In this document: one piece after another, positions 403 to 63,127 of the stretch
Layout: every line of letters starts with the position of its first letter
Numbering within the stretch: position 1 is the stretch's first letter
Assembly (NCBI RefSeq): GCF_019656315.1
Contig: NZ_BPLU01000038.1
Location: 620,001-684,000 of the forward strand
DNA from: Flavobacterium sp. UMI-01
GTDB lineage: Bacteria > Bacteroidota > Bacteroidia > Flavobacteriales > Flavobacteriaceae
Reading direction: 5' to 3'
Length of the DNA stretch: 64,000 nt
Program-made: the position numbers and the translations under genes
The notes under the pieces: model-generated
The model's input: the letters and a program-made list of their open reading frames with translations, nothing else
The model's database searches: none
Told to the model about the DNA's origin: nothing

Positions 403-1809
403 TTATCTCTTAGTTCGGTTGCTTTCGTTAATCGCATTCTCCGCATCCGTTGCTTCACGCACTCCTCCTGCACTCTTTATTTCGGCATTCTTTGTTCCTT
501 TGAAAGTGATTACTTTTGTCAACGTTTTATTATCTAAACTAATATTAGTAGCATGCATAGTCGCTTTTTCATCAAAATTGCCATACCCTTCCCAAACCGA
601 TAGTTTAATCGCCATAGTATTTGGAATCCAGTCGGGATTAGCGGTTGAAATAACCACCTTATGCCCTGTTCCGTTAATTTTGGCTAGCAAATTATTCGCT
701 CTTCCATTTCTGCTGTCCAAAATTTTGATTTCTACCTGCGCATTTTTAGCATTGGTATAAGGAATACAAAAAGCTTCTCCATATTTGGCATCGGCGCTGC
801 AATTAATCACTTTATCTTCATTTCCTATATTGTAACCTGTAGCCACGCAATCGCGCACTTCGCAGTCGATTACTTGGTCTCCCGAAGTGCTCAAGCCCGT
901 ACATATTCCTCTTCGCATTTGGGTTACTTTGCAATTTTTTACAGTGGTGTTTTTGGTTGGGTGACCTTCATAATCAGGGTACATACGGATGCCATCTTCA
1001 CTTAATGAGATGATTTCTCCTGGCAAAATTTTACCGTCTTCGCCCACTATTGTTCCTTCGATATAATTGTTTTTGCCTGCATAAAACTTTTTATCAAAAG
1101 CATAACCCGAAGTCTCTGCAAGAATGGCATCGGTGGTACGCAACAAACCATCCACCTGGCAGTTTTCAATCAAAGTATTTTCGGCTCCTTGCAAGAAAAT
1201 AGCGTGCCCCATTGCTCTCATGTGTACTTGACAACCCAGCAATTTTACATTTTTTGCAGGATAGCCTATTCGGATGCCGTTCATCTTACGCACATCATTT
1301 CCGCCAAGGCCGTACAAATAACCAAAACCCCAAGGACTTGAGCCTGTCGTTCGCACTTCCACATCTTTCAAGGTGACATTTTCCCCTACAAGGTTAAAAA
1401 TTTTGTTCTTGCTTTGTCTGCCCGGCGTATCGCCATAGGTCTCAATATACAAGCCCTCGAATGTTACATCTTTACCCGAAATTTCGATAGCACAATACAT
1501 GCTGTTTCCGTCCTTGCTTTTTGTCAAATCGTTGCGACTAAACAATTTCGAATCTACCATAAATCGCACTCCTCTTAAATCAAAATAAGAATTGTTGCCC
1601 GTGATTTCTATAAATCGGTTTTTTAATGCCGTATCAATTTGGTAATTCCCGGCTTTCATTTTGACCTTTACGTTGTCCTTATCCAAATAGCTTCTGAACT
1701 CCGAAAGGCTGCTTACCTCTATTACTTTATCAATTTTATTTGCCGATTGTGCATAGCTTGAAAAAAGCAGTACCAACACCGCAAAGGCAACATATACTTG
1801 TTTATTCAT
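403..1809 (-). CDS. Secreted right-handed beta-helix protein, paralog 1 (unassigned family)
   Basis: 468 residues with signal peptide (residues 1-22, cleavage after YAQS). The rest shows repeated V-x-NC / I-x-G turns typical of a right-handed parallel beta-helix (pectate-lyase-like fold). It is homologous to the proteins at 4700-6070, 6124-7476 and 22684-24000, sharing collinear motifs: GSSPWGFGYL (156-165), AMGH (199-202), RTTD (224-227), ETSG (232-235) and SEDGIRMY (270-277). Conserved His, Arg, Asp and Glu in those motifs are the obvious candidate active-site residues. I cannot place it in a numbered PL or GH family. Neighbours are a GH28-like gene 18 bp upstream and the GH39 gene downstream. 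A lyase or hydrolase role on the locus polysaccharide is inference from fold and context. Confidence 0.75.
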   Translation of the reverse strand: MNKQVYVAFAVLVLLFSSYAQSANKIDKVIEVSSLSEFRSYLDKDNVKVKMKAGNYQIDTALKNRFIEITGNNSYFDLRGVRFMVDSKLFSRNDLTKSKDGNSMYCAIEISGKDVTFEGLYIETYGDTPGRQSKNKIFNLVGENVTLKDVEVRTTGSSPWGFGYLYGLGGNDVRKMNGIRIGYPAKNVKLLGCQVHMRAMGHAIFLQGAENTLIENCQVDGLLRTTDAILAETSGYAFDKKFYAGKNNYIEGTIVGEDGKILPGEIISLSEDGIRMYPDYEGHPTKNTTVKNCKVTQMRRGICTGLSTSGDQVIDCEVRDCVATGYNIGNEDKVINCSADAKYGEAFCIPYTNAKNAQVEIKILDSRNGRANNLLAKINGTGHKVVISTANPDWIPNTMAIKLSVWEGYGNFDEKATMHATNISLDNKTLTKVITFKGTKNAEIKSAGGVREATDAENAINESNRTKR

Positions 1810-58960: not shown

Positions 58961-59500
58961 CGAGAACTCAAGCTTACTAACATTCCCCGAAGCACTAAGA
59001 CGCTAGGACAATCGTGGCTCCATTGCAACCTCATTCTCAGCAGTTTTAGGAGCACAACCCCTCCTTTTCAACATAACGACTCGTCCTGCTGTTCATTACA
59101 ATCCACGCCAAAAAAAGGCGTGGGATTTTCATTGCCATCAGGGCTATTTAGTTCGTTTTTATTTTCATAATAGCATTTTAAAATCTTACTTTTAATTACA
59201 AAATTGCATTTTAGATTCTTTCAAAATGCCAAGTTTGTGCATATCCTTTGGGGATAATTTAGGGAACCCACCCTAATATTGTATTTTTTTACCTCAAAAA
59301 CCTATTAAGGATACTGGGTTAAAAAAAGTCCTTACAAAATCTACGCTGAGCTTTAGTAAGGAATCAAAGTAAATCGACTCTTCATTTGTAAACTACCAAC
59401 ATTGACAAGTAGTTTAAAACAAAAATACTTTACTGTTTCCCTCATTTTCATTCATCAGCTTTTTACTATATTTACCAATCAATATACTTACAAACATACA
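58961..59500. other. Spacer before the restriction locus
   Basis: No convincing gene. It contains the terminator at 59101-59125 and AT-rich sequence up to the hsdM start. Open frames here (for example 58934-59170) lack family features. Confidence 0.5.
59101..59125 (+). terminator. Hairpin terminator
   Basis: ATCCACGCC-AAAAAAA-GGCGTGGGAT followed by TTTTC. It lies in the spacer downstream of the nas operon repeats and upstream of hsdM, closing the nas-side transcripts. Confidence 0.65.
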
Positions 59501-60967
59501 ATGGCCAATTTTGCGCAAACATTCAAAAACATAGACGACCTATTATACAAAGATTCAGGAGCCGATTCTGAAATAGACTACATCGAACAAACCTCTTGGG
59601 TGTTGTTTTTAAGATACTTAGACAGTTTTGACAAAAACCGCGAAGACGAAGCCATCTTAGAAGGCAAAGACTACACGAGCATATTAGAAAACAAATACCA
59701 ATGGGAGACTTGGGCAGCACCCAAAAATGATAAAGGAGAAATCGACATCCACAAAGCACTCATTGGCCCCGATTTGGTGAAATTTGTTGAATTTGAGCTT
59801 TTCCCGTATCTGGCGAGTTTTAAAGAAAAGCACATCGATAATCCTAAAACCATTGAATACAAGATTGGCGAAATCTTCTCCGAACTAAGCAACAAAATCA
59901 AATCGGGTTACAACTTGCGTGAAATCATCAATATGGTTGATGGATTGCCTTTTGGTACCAGTAAGGACAAACACGAATTATCGCATCTATACGAAACCAA
60001 AATTAAAAATATGGGGAATGCCGGTCGTAATGGTGGACAATACTATACGCCGAGACCATTAATTCGCACCATGATTAAATTATTGGAACCAAAAATCGGA
60101 GAAAAAATATACGACCCAGCTTGTGGTTCTGCAGGTTTCTTGTGTGAAGCCTATGAGTACCTGTACGAGAAAATGGAGAAAACAGCTGCCAACTTAAATC
60201 AGCTACAGGAAAATACTTTTTTTGGAAAAGAAAAGAAAAACCTAGCCTATATCATTGGTACCATGAACATGATTCTGCATGGAATTGAAGCGCCAAACAT
60301 TGTACATACCAATACACTGGGAGAAAACATACGTGATATTCAGGAAAAAAACCGTTACGACATTATTCTTGCCAATCCACCCTTTGGCGGTAAAGAACGT
60401 GCCGAGGTACAACAAAACTTCGACATCAAAACAGGAGAAACAGCCTTCTTGTTCATGCAGCATTTCATCAAGTCGCTAAAAGCAGGTGGTCGAGCTGCTA
60501 TTGTTATCAAAAATACTTTCTTAAGCAATACGGATAATGCTTCGGTAGCACTGCGCCAACATTTATTAGAAACCTGTAACCTACATACGATTCTCGATAT
60601 GCCACAAGGAACTTTCTTGGGGGCAGGAGTAAAAACGGTAGTCTTGTTTTTTACCAAAGGAGAACCAACAAAAAACATTTGGTACTATCAGCTAGACCCC
60701 GGAAGAAACATGGGGAAAACCAATCCGCTTAACGATGCTGATTTAGATGATTTTGTCAGGCTGAGCTTATCGAAGCCCGAAACCGAAAAATCATGGAATC
60801 TGGCGGTGGCTACTGTTGATGAAAAAACCTGCGACCTCTCGGTTAAAAATCCAAACAAACCCGAAGAAGCACCACTGCGCGAACCGGCTTTAATTTTGGA
60901 AGAAATGCAAACCCTTGACGAGGAAACAGCTGAGATTTTAGGAACTTTAAATGAGTTAGTGGGCTAG
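59501..60967 (+). CDS. hsdM: Type I restriction-modification DNA methyltransferase subunit
   Basis: The open frame extends to 59402 with a TTG, but MANFAQTFKNIDDLLYKDSGAD at 59501 is the usual HsdM start (488 residues). Helical N-domain (SWVLFLRYLDSFDKNRE) then the N6-adenine methyltransferase fold: motif I DPACGSAGF (D205), motif IV NPPFGG (N292). Residues 418-428 read FVRLSLSKPET, encoded by a REP-like DNA segment (60755-60776) that replaces a normal stretch of about equal length in the family. The last codons (EILGTLNELVG) share 18 bp with the end of the next gene. With HsdS it methylates adenine in a bipartite site. Confidence 0.93.
   Translation: MANFAQTFKNIDDLLYKDSGADSEIDYIEQTSWVLFLRYLDSFDKNREDEAILEGKDYTSILENKYQWETWAAPKNDKGEIDIHKALIGPDLVKFVEFELFPYLASFKEKHIDNPKTIEYKIGEIFSELSNKIKSGYNLREIINMVDGLPFGTSKDKHELSHLYETKIKNMGNAGRNGGQYYTPRPLIRTMIKLLEPKIGEKIYDPACGSAGFLCEAYEYLYEKMEKTAANLNQLQENTFFGKEKKNLAYIIGTMNMILHGIEAPNIVHTNTLGENIRDIQEKNRYDIILANPPFGGKERAEVQQNFDIKTGETAFLFMQHFIKSLKAGGRAAIVIKNTFLSNTDNASVALRQHLLETCNLHTILDMPQGTFLGAGVKTVVLFFTKGEPTKNIWYYQLDPGRNMGKTNPLNDADLDDFVRLSLSKPETEKSWNLAVATVDEKTCDLSVKNPNKPEEAPLREPALILEEMQTLDEETAEILGTLNELVG
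60755..60776 (+). repeat. REP-like segment inside hsdM
   Basis: GTCAGGCTGAGCTTATCGAA plus GC matches the intergenic element at 58725-58746 at about 20 of 22 positions. The frame is kept; it encodes VRLSLSK. Confidence 0.75.
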
Positions 60968-61944
60968 TTTGATAACTTGAGGTCACAAATTGTGACTTCA
61001 AATTAAAAGTCATAAATAAAAAAAGTATTTTGAACCGGTCACAAATTGTGACCAGTTCGTCAAAAATAAAAACACAAGTTTCTTGTATGAGTGAACTAAT
61101 AACAATTGAAAATCGCATTTTTACTTTTAGAGGGGAACAAGTGATGATAGATCGTGATCTGGCCGAAATGTATAATGTAGAAGTGAAAAGGTTAAACGAA
61201 CAGGTAAAAAGAAACATAGAACGTTTTCCGGAATCATTTAGATTTCAACTTACAGCTGAAGAAAAAGAGCAACTGGTCGCAAATTGCGACCGGTTCGCTA
61301 CACTTAAACATTCTTCGGCAAACCCCTATGCATTCACAGAACAAGGCGTTGCCATGCTTTCGGCTGTTTTGCGAAGTGATATAGCCATACAGGTAAGCAT
61401 CCAGATTATGCAGGCCTTTGTACACATGCGCAAAAACATCAACAACAACCTGTCGCTGTTACAATTGTCCGACGATTTTGAAAAGTTTAAACTCACTACC
61501 ACTCAACAATTCGATAAAATATTCAATGCATTGGAAAACCATAAAGAACTACCTAAACAAGGCATATTCTTTAACGGACAAACCTATGATGCCTATGCTT
61601 TTGTAAACCAATTAATAAAAGAAGCCAAAACAAGCATCACCGTAATTGACAATTATATAGACGATACCGTAATTACCTTGTTGACTGCTAAAAAACAAAA
61701 CGTAAAAGTTAGCTTACTCATGCAGCAACCCACTAAAAAAATAGAACTCGACGTGCAAAAAGCAAACACCCAATACCCAACATTTCAAATTAAAAAATTC
61801 AAGCTGTCGCATGACCGCTTTATCATTATAGACAATCAGAAGGTCTATCACATAGGCGCTTCGCTCAAAGACCTGGGTAAAAAATGGTTTGCCTTTACCC
61901 TACTGGAACAGGATACCGTAAAATTATTAGGAACTTTAAATGAG
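60938..61944. repeat. 18-bp direct repeats bounding the ORF6N unit
   Basis: TTAGGAACTTTAAATGAG occurs at 60938-60955, the end of hsdM, and at 61927-61944, the end of the ORF6N gene, 989 bp apart. The second copy is followed by the ATG of hsdS 10 bp on, as the hsdM end probably was before insertion. Confidence 0.75.
60982..61052. promoter_or_regulatory. Two copies of palindrome GTCACAAATTGTGAC upstream of the ORF6N gene
   Basis: Perfect 7-bp-arm palindromes at 60982-60996 and 61038-61052, centre to centre 56 bp, before the ORF6N start at 61087. A third, covariant version (GTCGCAAATTGCGAC, 61276-61290) lies inside the gene. Operator for an autoregulating DNA-binding protein is one reading; part of the mobile unit is another. 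Confidence 0.6.
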
Positions 61945-61953
61945 GTGGTGTAA
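61087..61953 (+). CDS. ORF6N-domain protein with PLD-like C-terminal segment
   Basis: Start chosen at 61087 (MSELITIENRIFTFRGEQVM), the family's usual N-terminus, rather than 61030; 288 residues. N-terminal ORF6N DNA-binding domain (about 1-115: DRDLAEMYNVEVKRLNEQVKRN, RFPESFRFQLT, NPYAFTEQGVAMLSAVLRSD). A middle coiled region (NNNLSLLQLSDDFEKFKLTTTQ) and a C-terminal part (SITVIDNYIDDTVITLL, LSHDRFIIIDNQKVYHIGASLKDLGKKWFAF) resembling one half of a phospholipase D-like fold. ORF6N proteins come from phages and are common in Bacteroidota hsd loci. The last eight residues (LGTLNEVV) copy the hsdM terminus. Function is unproven; a regulatory or defence-accessory role is inferred from placement. 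Confidence 0.85.
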   Translation: MSELITIENRIFTFRGEQVMIDRDLAEMYNVEVKRLNEQVKRNIERFPESFRFQLTAEEKEQLVANCDRFATLKHSSANPYAFTEQGVAMLSAVLRSDIAIQVSIQIMQAFVHMRKNINNNLSLLQLSDDFEKFKLTTTQQFDKIFNALENHKELPKQGIFFNGQTYDAYAFVNQLIKEAKTSITVIDNYIDDTVITLLTAKKQNVKVSLLMQQPTKKIELDVQKANTQYPTFQIKKFKLSHDRFIIIDNQKVYHIGASLKDLGKKWFAFTLLEQDTVKLLGTLNEVV

Positions 61954-61954
61954 A

Positions 61955-63127
61955 ATGAATTGGATAACAAAAAAAATTGGTGATATCGGTAAAGTTTCAA
62001 TGTGCAAAAGAATACTAAAAAATCAAACTTCCGCAACTGGAGATATACCTTTCTATAAAATTGGAACTTTTGGAAAAAAAGCAGATGCTTTTATTTCAAG
62101 AGAAATTTATGATGAATTTATCAGTAAATATTCTTTTCCCAAAAAAGGAGATATTCTACTTTCAGCTTCAGGAACAATTGGTAGAAGAGTTATATATGAC
62201 GGAAAACCTGCATATTTTCAGGATTCAAATATAGTGTGGATTGATAATGATGAAAAAGAAGTTTTAAATGAGTACTTATATAAATTTTACGGGTATTGTA
62301 ATTGGAATCCTTCGAAAGGCGCAACTATTTCAAGGCTTTATAATGATGATTTGAGAAACATCATTATTTATTTTCCAAAATCTTTCCAAGAACAACGCGC
62401 CATAGTAGCCAAACTCGACCAGGCGTTTACAGCCATAGACCAAGCCAAAGCCAACATCGAAAAAAACATCGCCAACGCCAAAGAATTGTTTCAATCCAAA
62501 TTGAATCAAATTTTTTCGCAAAAAGGTGAGGGTTGGGAGGAAAAGAAATTAGGTGAAATTTCTAAGATTAACTATGGTTACACTGAAAAGGCAGTTTTTG
62601 AAAATATTGGTCCAAAATATTTAAGAATTACAGATTTGACTGAAAAGGGTGTTAATTGGGAAAGTGTTCCTCATTGTAAAATCAGTAAAGATGAAATTAT
62701 TAAATATGAATTACAAAAGGGTGATATAGTATTTGCGAGAACAGGAGCAACTACAGGTAAAAGTTATTTGTTTGATGATGATGTATTTTCAGTTTTTGCA
62801 TCATATTTAATCCGTTTGAAGGTTATAAATAAGAATGAGATTCTTCCTGAATTCATCTATTTGTTTTTTCAAAGTGGAAATTATTGGAAAGAAATTAATG
62901 CTGGTATTTCAGGTAGTGCACAAGGTGGTTTTAATGCCTCAAAACTATCTGATTTGAAATTGTCATATCCATTGGATTCAAATATTCAAAAAAAGATTGT
63001 TACAGATTTTGATGTTGTTTTAAGTCAAACTAATTTATTAATTACCAAATACCAACATAAACTAGCTAACCTTGAAGAACTCAAAAAAAGTATTTTAGAA
63101 AAGGCATTTAAAGGGGAGTTGGTGTAA
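61955..63127 (+). CDS. hsdS: Type I restriction-modification specificity subunit
   Basis: Start at 61955 (MNWITKKIGDIGKV), 1 bp after the ORF6N stop, rather than 61940; 390 residues. Two target-recognition domains (about 5-140 and 200-340, the second with KKLGEISKINYGYT) separated by a conserved spacer QRAIVAKLDQAFTAIDQAKAN, and the second spacer KYQHKLANLEELKKSILEKAFKGEL at the end. The TRDs are clearly more AT-rich than the spacers, as expected for cassettes exchanged between hsdS genes. HsdS selects the bipartite recognition sequence for methylation and cleavage. Confidence 0.92.
   Translation: MNWITKKIGDIGKVSMCKRILKNQTSATGDIPFYKIGTFGKKADAFISREIYDEFISKYSFPKKGDILLSASGTIGRRVIYDGKPAYFQDSNIVWIDNDEKEVLNEYLYKFYGYCNWNPSKGATISRLYNDDLRNIIIYFPKSFQEQRAIVAKLDQAFTAIDQAKANIEKNIANAKELFQSKLNQIFSQKGEGWEEKKLGEISKINYGYTEKAVFENIGPKYLRITDLTEKGVNWESVPHCKISKDEIIKYELQKGDIVFARTGATTGKSYLFDDDVFSVFASYLIRLKVINKNEILPEFIYLFFQSGNYWKEINAGISGSAQGGFNASKLSDLKLSYPLDSNIQKKIVTDFDVVLSQTNLLITKYQHKLANLEELKKSILEKAFKGELV

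Follow-up and report, generated by a model that had tools for sequence, protein, structure and literature searches.

The lac operon is an autoregulated system of the helix-turn-helix (HTH) repressor type with auxiliary operators inside a gene, and palindromes in or beside genes are also familiar as REP elements and Rickettsia palindromic elements. In phage lambda, the origin of replication lies inside the O gene, where four 19-bp repeats are bound via the amino-terminal half of the O protein, as two reports describe (PMC4488673, PMC5043065). Here we describe a locus of Flavobacterium sp. UMI-01, and the family of ORF6N genes to which it belongs, in which a palindrome inside the reading frame is predicted to be bound by the protein that the surrounding gene encodes. 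The window, by which we mean the whole 64,000-nt stretch analysed, has the gene order hsdM-like, ORF6N, hsdS-like and contains the following features.

59402–60967, + strand: hsdM-like type I restriction–modification methylase (N6_Mtase, 212.6 bits); the real start is possibly later
60976–61002, + strand: upstream palindrome 1 (core 60982–60996), CA type, with different outer arms
61032–61058, + strand: upstream palindrome 2 (core 61038–61052), CA type (GTCACA), centre 43 nt before the ATG
61087–61953, + strand: ORF6N gene, 288 aa, with the ORF6N domain at residues 9–94 and a PLD-like C-terminal fold at about residues 154–288
61183–61212, + strand: codons for residues 33–42, the predicted HTH recognition helix, where the strongest residue-to-base couplings fall
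61186–61188 (K34), 61198–61200 (E38) and 61210–61212 (R42), + strand: codons of the predicted contact residues
61270–61296, + strand: in-gene palindrome, half-site type CG (GTCGCA), encoding residues 62–70 (QLVANCDRF)
61955–63127, + strand: hsdS-like type I restriction–modification specificity subunit (Methylase_S, 139 bits)

Pfam places the window protein in the ORF6N family (PF10543, 108.6 bits against a cut-off of 27.8, profile positions 1–86 of 86), and a structure search with its C-terminal part (residues 154–288) indicated a fold resembling Nuc/NucT and the TrmB C-domain. The PLDc_2 model scored 25.9 bits, slightly below its cut-off of 27. The nuclease motif of the PLD superfamily is HxK(x)4D; the window protein reads HDRFIIID, with arginine replacing the motif lysine, and H242, D243, R244 and D249 are invariant among 31 aligned proteins. 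The hsdM-like gene product scored 22.8 bits against HsdM_N, below the cut-off of 24.5, and the hsdS-like start at 61955 was picked by eye, the first ATG being at 61940. No second intact ORF6N gene was seen in the genome.

An 18-nt direct repeat (60938–60955 and 61927–61944) lies at the 3′ ends of the hsdM and ORF6N genes and gives the two proteins alike ends (LGTLNELVG and LGTLNEVV). Similar locus-specific sharing between an ORF6N gene and its upstream gene occurs at loci L015 and L025, and 5 of 241 loci share at least 14 nt with the upstream gene, compared with about 0.2 per shuffle; at three of these five (L081, L157 and L239) the upstream ORF is itself perhaps an ORF6N gene. The shared 3′ tail is possibly a trace of insertion or tail mimicry. 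Upstream of hsdM, a Flavo-1 RNA (RF01705) lies on the reverse strand at 59078–59149 (57.5 bits, gathering threshold 42).

The original prediction had pointed to a palindrome occurring twice before the ORF6N gene and once within it. We recovered three exact GTCRCAAATTGYGAC palindromes in this arrangement: GTCACAAATTGTGAC at 60982–60996 and 61038–61052, both 5′ of the gene, and GTCGCAAATTGCGAC at 61276–61290 inside it. As had been claimed, the inner copy encodes LVANCD and the upstream copies contain SQIVTS in another frame, reading LRSQIVTSN and NRSQIVTSS in the other palindrome phase. The symmetry exceeds that first described, spanning about 27 bp at each site (60976–61002, 61032–61058 and 61270–61296), and the centre of upstream palindrome 1 lies 99 nt 5′ of the ATG, with the palindrome directly past the hsdM stop. 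When up to two mismatches are allowed, the window contains 7 matches against 0.53 expected and a maximum of 3 in 100 dinucleotide shuffles. Zero-mismatch matches to GTCNCAAATTGNGAC across the whole genome (4.02 Mb, 76 contigs) are these three sites only, and a covariance model at E < 0.09 found the same three sites plus a fourth, within an ORF6N fragment of a different contig (150 of 1,579 candidates scored). A REP-like or dispersed palindromic element, which would be expected in many copies, was rejected on this basis, with all three zero-mismatch matches at the window locus; a general genomic repeat was likewise rejected, as the sites are strongly tied to ORF6N loci. Rfam returned no match over 60976–61296 at E values up to 1. 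On contig 34, at about 65590–65664 (L012), a short piece of ORF6N contains a degenerate palindrome and seems to lie within repeated DNA.

To follow the palindrome across the family, we drew on the best 80 of 244 relatives from a scan of species genomes and on family searches in the window's family, its phylum and beyond; 58 of 248 loci were left unparsed, many of them palindrome matches unrelated to ORF6N or duplicates. An inverted repeat with a 3-nt centre, located past the HTH codons, has at least 9 of 12 pairs in 300 of 306 full-domain ORF6N genes and at least 10 in 287 (distinct genes; 17 partial domains, of 323 genes in all, were excluded). This agrees with the earlier proposal that selection acts on the DNA site itself, under which most homologues should carry the palindrome. 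Recoding 192 genes with synonymous codons lowers the mean number of pairs from 10.74 to 7.37, and in 161 of the 192 none of 60 recodings reaches the observed pairing. Of the 192 genes, 187 reach 9 of 12 pairs; in these, codon phase 2 holds the centre in 111 and phase 0 in 76, with phase 1 never used, so the proposed two classes of ORF6N protein, reading one palindrome in two frames, are real. Symmetric covariation, a check suggested with the original prediction, is also strong: across 57 distinct repeats the score is 0.643 against 0.163 for shuffled pairings, and 160 cells show a double change against 37.3. Changes on both sides occur at 9 of 12 pairs, a number of pairs not above that in shuffles (8.8). 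Some cores are divergent yet symmetric, among them GTTCCA/TGGAAC, GTCAAA/TTTGAC and GGTGCCA/TGGCACC.

The distribution of the palindrome follows that of ORF6N. In the distant ORF6N proteins L387, L389, L390 and L416, which lack a VKRN-type helix, it is absent (best 8–9 of 12 pairs); L388, L417–L419, L213, L236 and L242, in which no anchor was found, stand outside this comparison. A scan of viral contigs with a single protein as query gave no match, and with an alignment as query gave 45 loci, of which 29 were parsed by pattern; every one of the 29 reached 9 of 12 pairs or more. Matches to the covariance model occurred in 49 of 50 ORF6N-bearing genomes and in 9 of 50 lacking the gene; the former were hand-chosen from the 162 genomes with an ORF6N match and the latter from those without, and both searches ran under the stricter filters that apply above 40 genomes. 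The seven of the nine ORF6N-free matches whose sites were read comprise four terminator-like sites, one inside an ORF, one resembling an ORF6N remnant (L293) and one adjoining an integrase pair (L289/L298); the sites of L296 and L297 fall outside that reading. The exact core occurs in 30 of 397 genomes of the family, 18 of them among the 49 with an ORF6N match. In the other 12, judged by eye, eight sites are A/T-tailed and terminator-like, two lie in other coding frames, one coincides with mutS codons and the twelfth (L118) adjoins an integrase pair. As a separate observation, L307, L308, L310 and L311 carry tandem ORFs that by eye are tyrosine recombinase-like, followed by the palindrome, near Rhs-like ORFs; in L307 and L308 an ORF6N gene follows the palindrome, and the arrangement is repeated about 7 kb apart.

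Structure models of the full window protein and of its N-terminal domain alone (mean pLDDT 91.4) both contain an HTH, with helices at residues 22–28 and 33–42. A fold search with the N-terminal domain gave no significant match (best E 0.29), a result with which a relative is still compatible. For 296 genes (4 of 300 had no readable helix anchor), we aligned the second HTH helix with the in-gene site and counted each half-site over 284 distinct combinations of helix, site and frame, with duplicates merged. A simple correspondence emerged. Residue 38 specifies pairs 4 and 3, with Q taking CA (257/270), E taking CG (191/194) and K taking TC (26/26); R takes GC less cleanly (47/70) and L takes TT (5/6). 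Residue 42 goes with pair 2 (R with C in 535/536, N with A in 26/28) and residue 34 with pair 6 (K with G in 380/382, whereas R takes A in 99 and G in 49). These three residues are four apart and thus lie on the same helix face, and their pairs follow in order toward the palindrome centre. With no residue preselected, the top corrected couplings between 60 domain columns and 12 pairs fell at helix positions 9, 6, 5, 10 and 13, which are window residues 38, 35, 34, 39 and 42. Residues on one helix face therefore covary with specific base pairs of both half-sites, as expected of an HTH reader, and this helix-to-base code makes it very probable that the surrounding protein binds at the palindrome.

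The best in-gene site fits the code in 287 of 296 genes; for six of the nine exceptions, the locus holds a matching site nearby, and L309, listed among the exceptions, is truncated, and the string taken for its helix is not the real one. The window gene obeys the code, combining K34, E38 and R42 with GGTCGCA, and its in-gene palindrome is the predicted cognate site of the window protein (E38 with CG, K34 with G at pair 6, R42 with C at pair 2). Both upstream copies have the CA half-site GTCACA, which is the type of Q helices, whereas the window gene is E-type; the window protein would accordingly be expected to prefer GGTCGCANNNTGCGACC over GGTCACANNNTGTGACC. The original prediction had suggested that the palindrome might be a binding site of ORF6N proteins, and the code, which it did not foresee, supports recognition of the in-gene copy by the protein. 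Fifteen genes (L386, L415, L184 and others) were flagged as having at least two palindromes in the ORF6N loop, sometimes of different types; all 15 have a match to their own helix in at least one copy, and some second copies are weak chance repeats.

The code was inferred from the genes that it describes; counts from held-out genes, sister pairs and tree pairs are separate tests of it. It is the same in both frames: among fully symmetric cases, Q goes with CA in 45/49 and E with CG in 33/33 phase 0 genes, and in 81/86 and 62/64, respectively, in phase 2. Predicting each site from genes less than 50% identical outside the helix and site succeeded in 253 of 262 cases, and predicting it from genes of the other frame alone in 216 of 242, where success means that at least one half-site fits. 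Sister pairs were defined by a flank identity of 60% or more. They had no half-site type in common in 91 of the 96 pairs that differ at residue 38, against 4 of the 99 in which this residue is the same; counting any site difference, the figures are 93/96 and 9/99. Analyses that required the flanks retained 264 or 256 rows. A tree built from the flanks with FastTree (256 rows) requires at least 85 changes of helix residue and at least 31 changes of frame, bearing out the frame switching that had been expected alongside covariation. Between independent tree pairs on well-supported branches, Q/E and site type are concordant in 10.6 of 11 and opposite in none, and K34 and base pair 6 are concordant in 18.0 of 21 and opposite in none. 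Frame-independence, hold-outs, sister pairs and tree pairs together argue that the code reflects neither coupling within the protein nor shared ancestry.

What the site is for can be approached through its surroundings. A predicted cognate site lies inside the gene's own transcription unit in 287 of 296 genes, as expected of an autoregulated repressor, and 217 of 265 ORF6N genes have a same-strand gene (ORF of at least 120 aa) close upstream; the 94 of these 217 neighbours that were scanned include 9 with N6_Mtase and 7 with Phage_integrase, the remainder being diverse. Further sites occur within 400 nt of the genes. By a rule requiring a CA..TG apex and 10 of 12 pairs, there are 49 distinct sites upstream (45 of 323 genes) and 21 downstream (18 of 323 genes; a few of these sites lie inside split or adjacent ORF6N genes and are their in-gene sites), and 35 of the 49 upstream sites lie 28 to 73 nt 5′ of the start codon. 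An earlier count over 190 loci had found 44 matches outside the in-gene site compared with 2 in reversed control DNA. Agreement between these extra sites and the code of the gene to which they belong is no better than chance (24 of 66; after shuffling, 20.1, s.d. 2.9; some of the 66 are terminator-like repeats). Similarity within a locus is raised in the arms (0.561 vs 0.461, P = 0.001, 2,000 shuffles) but not in the core (0.812 vs 0.806), so neighbouring sites are not mere copies of one another. Simple autorepression through neighbouring sites, for which a code match above chance was expected, is weakened by these counts; the Q-type upstream sites beside an E-type gene weaken it at the window as well. 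There, the reading block may plausibly have been replaced and the Q-type upstream sites left behind. Two further arrangements touch on possible targets and neighbours: at L299 (1521–1590), K-type and Q-type palindromes lie just 5′ of a DUF3800 gene with no adjoining ORF6N, a possible further target, and at L104 a LAGLIDADG endonuclease gene (640–1203, reverse strand) lies directly 3′ of the ORF6N gene.

Self-regulation is the likeliest use of the palindrome, since the in-gene cognate site is near-universal and other sites in the window's own genome are few. We consider it likely that these ORF6N proteins are self-addressed HTH proteins, each reading the palindrome in its own gene through the recognition helix and probably limiting transcription of its own operon. 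Proteins of this type would bind the palindrome as symmetric pairs, presumably as dimers, with residues 34, 38 and 42 reading pairs 6, 4/3 and 2 of each half-site; contacts at pairs 2–6 flanking a 3-nt centre would set the half-sites about 11 bp apart, one duplex turn. In each gene the protein's own site would lie within the reading frame, just past the codons of the reading helix, and a site encoded beside those codons would be inherited, exchanged and respecified together with the specificity. The protein would bind its own gene and, at some loci, a site 28–73 nt before the start codon as well, and the bound protein might limit transcription of its gene and of the operon (hsdM–ORF6N–hsdS in the window) by a roadblock or by looping, both the direction and the purpose of this control being inferred.

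A selected form different from a duplex operator would be a nucleic-acid hairpin, either in mRNA or as a DNA cruciform, recognised in its folded state by the protein or by another factor. We judge this unlikely, although the outer arms speak for it: pairs 9–11 are complementary in 93–97% of 254 genes while using 43 distinct outer 5-mers with no clear reading residue, copies within a locus have identical arms in 1 of 49 pairs, the longest arms contain 16 or more perfect pairs (the measuring limit), and non-coding copies are more stable on the sense strand in 32 cases versus 16 (n = 56). A plain HTH operator leaves this outer complementarity unaccounted for, and DNA fold-back may therefore also matter. 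The inner pairs, however, obey the HTH code, the contacts on the two sides of the centre imply the spacing of one duplex turn given above, and there is no consistent preference for G·U over A·C on the coding strand, with G·T and A·C numbering 27 and 55 in phase 2 in-gene sites, 47 and 12 in phase 0 (29 of them at pair 8, with the codons Leu CTG and Arg CGG opposite each other) and 22 and 15 at pairs 1–11 of non-coding copies. Folding energy favours the sense strand in phase 0 (70 vs 14) and the opposite strand in phase 2 (84 vs 27). An RNA hairpin was not adopted, because the wobble and folding signs conflict between the frames and the non-coding copies.

Comparison of close relatives bears on whether the palindrome might instead be a crossover or mobility site, at which binding would serve recombination, for exchange of the central block or movement of the gene. 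At L302, two neighbouring paralogues have near-identical flanks; most of their differences fall in a block that covers helix and palindrome and stops at the latter, and the pair combines a Q-type gene carrying GTCACA with an R-type gene carrying GTGACA/TGGCAC. Shared flanks with a different centre were also seen in L046/L086 (about −112 to +46 from the palindrome centre), L160/L221 (about −136 to +94) and the L239 pair (about −139 to +145). These exchanges, the 31 or more frame changes on the tree and the Phage_integrase domain in 7 of 94 scanned upstream neighbours would suit such a role. Nevertheless, the ends of high-identity blocks are scattered over the gene with no pile-up at the palindrome, so the sharp boundary of the L302 pair was rejected as a general rule; many upstream neighbours are ordinary genes; and a mere crossover site would have no need to track the encoded helix, as this site does. 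We regard this role as improbable. A comparison of protein identity to the left and right of the site was set aside owing to misalignment in genes with tandem palindromes.

Returning to the self-addressed binder, helix and site appear to change in concert, in some cases through the swap of a single block. In-frame exchange of such a block would explain how close relatives come to use different frames (L401 and L391; L345 and L343) without paired frameshifts. More tentatively, and as a picture that we hold possible without favouring it, ORF6N genes could form a widespread library of self-addressed binders in which swaps of blocks of about 150–250 bp give orthogonal specificities, the loop being readable in two frames and the fold-back outer arms aiding the swap or regulation.

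A role in replication initiation or segregation, by analogy with the lambda origin inside the O gene, would share the layout of sites inside the binding protein's gene, and the 15 genes flagged with two or more loop palindromes (the second being in some a weak chance repeat) also speak for it. We think it very unlikely: ORF6N adjoins many unrelated chromosomal genes, mostly a single site was found, and no replication module lies next to the ORF6N gene in the window. Coincidence, codon bias or protein-level constraint alone, which the protein-coding nature of the palindrome segment might suggest, has a negligible chance of being right, being contradicted by the synonymous-codon null and by identical DNA and code in two frames.

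For a poorly described family, these results supply a predicted binding site, contact residues and a specificity code together. They also reveal a DNA-level constraint strong enough to mould protein sequence in two reading frames, in the light of which the protein motifs LRSQ(I/F)VT and LVTNCD look like by-products of the site; residue couplings in ORF6N could mislead the inference of protein contacts. With lock and key located in a single gene and changing in step, the family offers a clean natural system for the long-standing question of how regulators and their sites coevolve.

As far as our searches go, a self-encoded site with a code is a new form of a known idea, that of a binder's site within its own gene; our literature search found no paper naming the binding site of an ORF6N protein. 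The window protein belongs to ORF6N (PF10543) and resembles phage anti-repressor families (phrog_4792). Lambda O and its origin share with ORF6N symmetric sites inside the coding sequence of the binding protein, and the portions of the lambda reports available to us describe neither a helix-to-base code nor two reading frames (PMC4488673, PMC5043065). Unlike lambda O, ORF6N shows no indication of an initiator function or origin and usually has one palindrome. Archaeal TrmB and TrmBL2 are like the window protein in joining an N-terminal DNA-binding part to a PLD-like C-domain (C-domain Z scores of 9.7 to 11.5), but only some of the ORF6N proteins examined are long enough for such a domain. In contrast to REP and Rickettsia elements, the ORF6N palindrome is not dispersed and is tied to ORF6N loci. 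Lac-type systems resemble the window locus in having operator-like palindromes both before and inside a gene; they differ from ORF6N in that the in-gene site of ORF6N is near-universal and encodes part of its binder, with specificity and site changing together.
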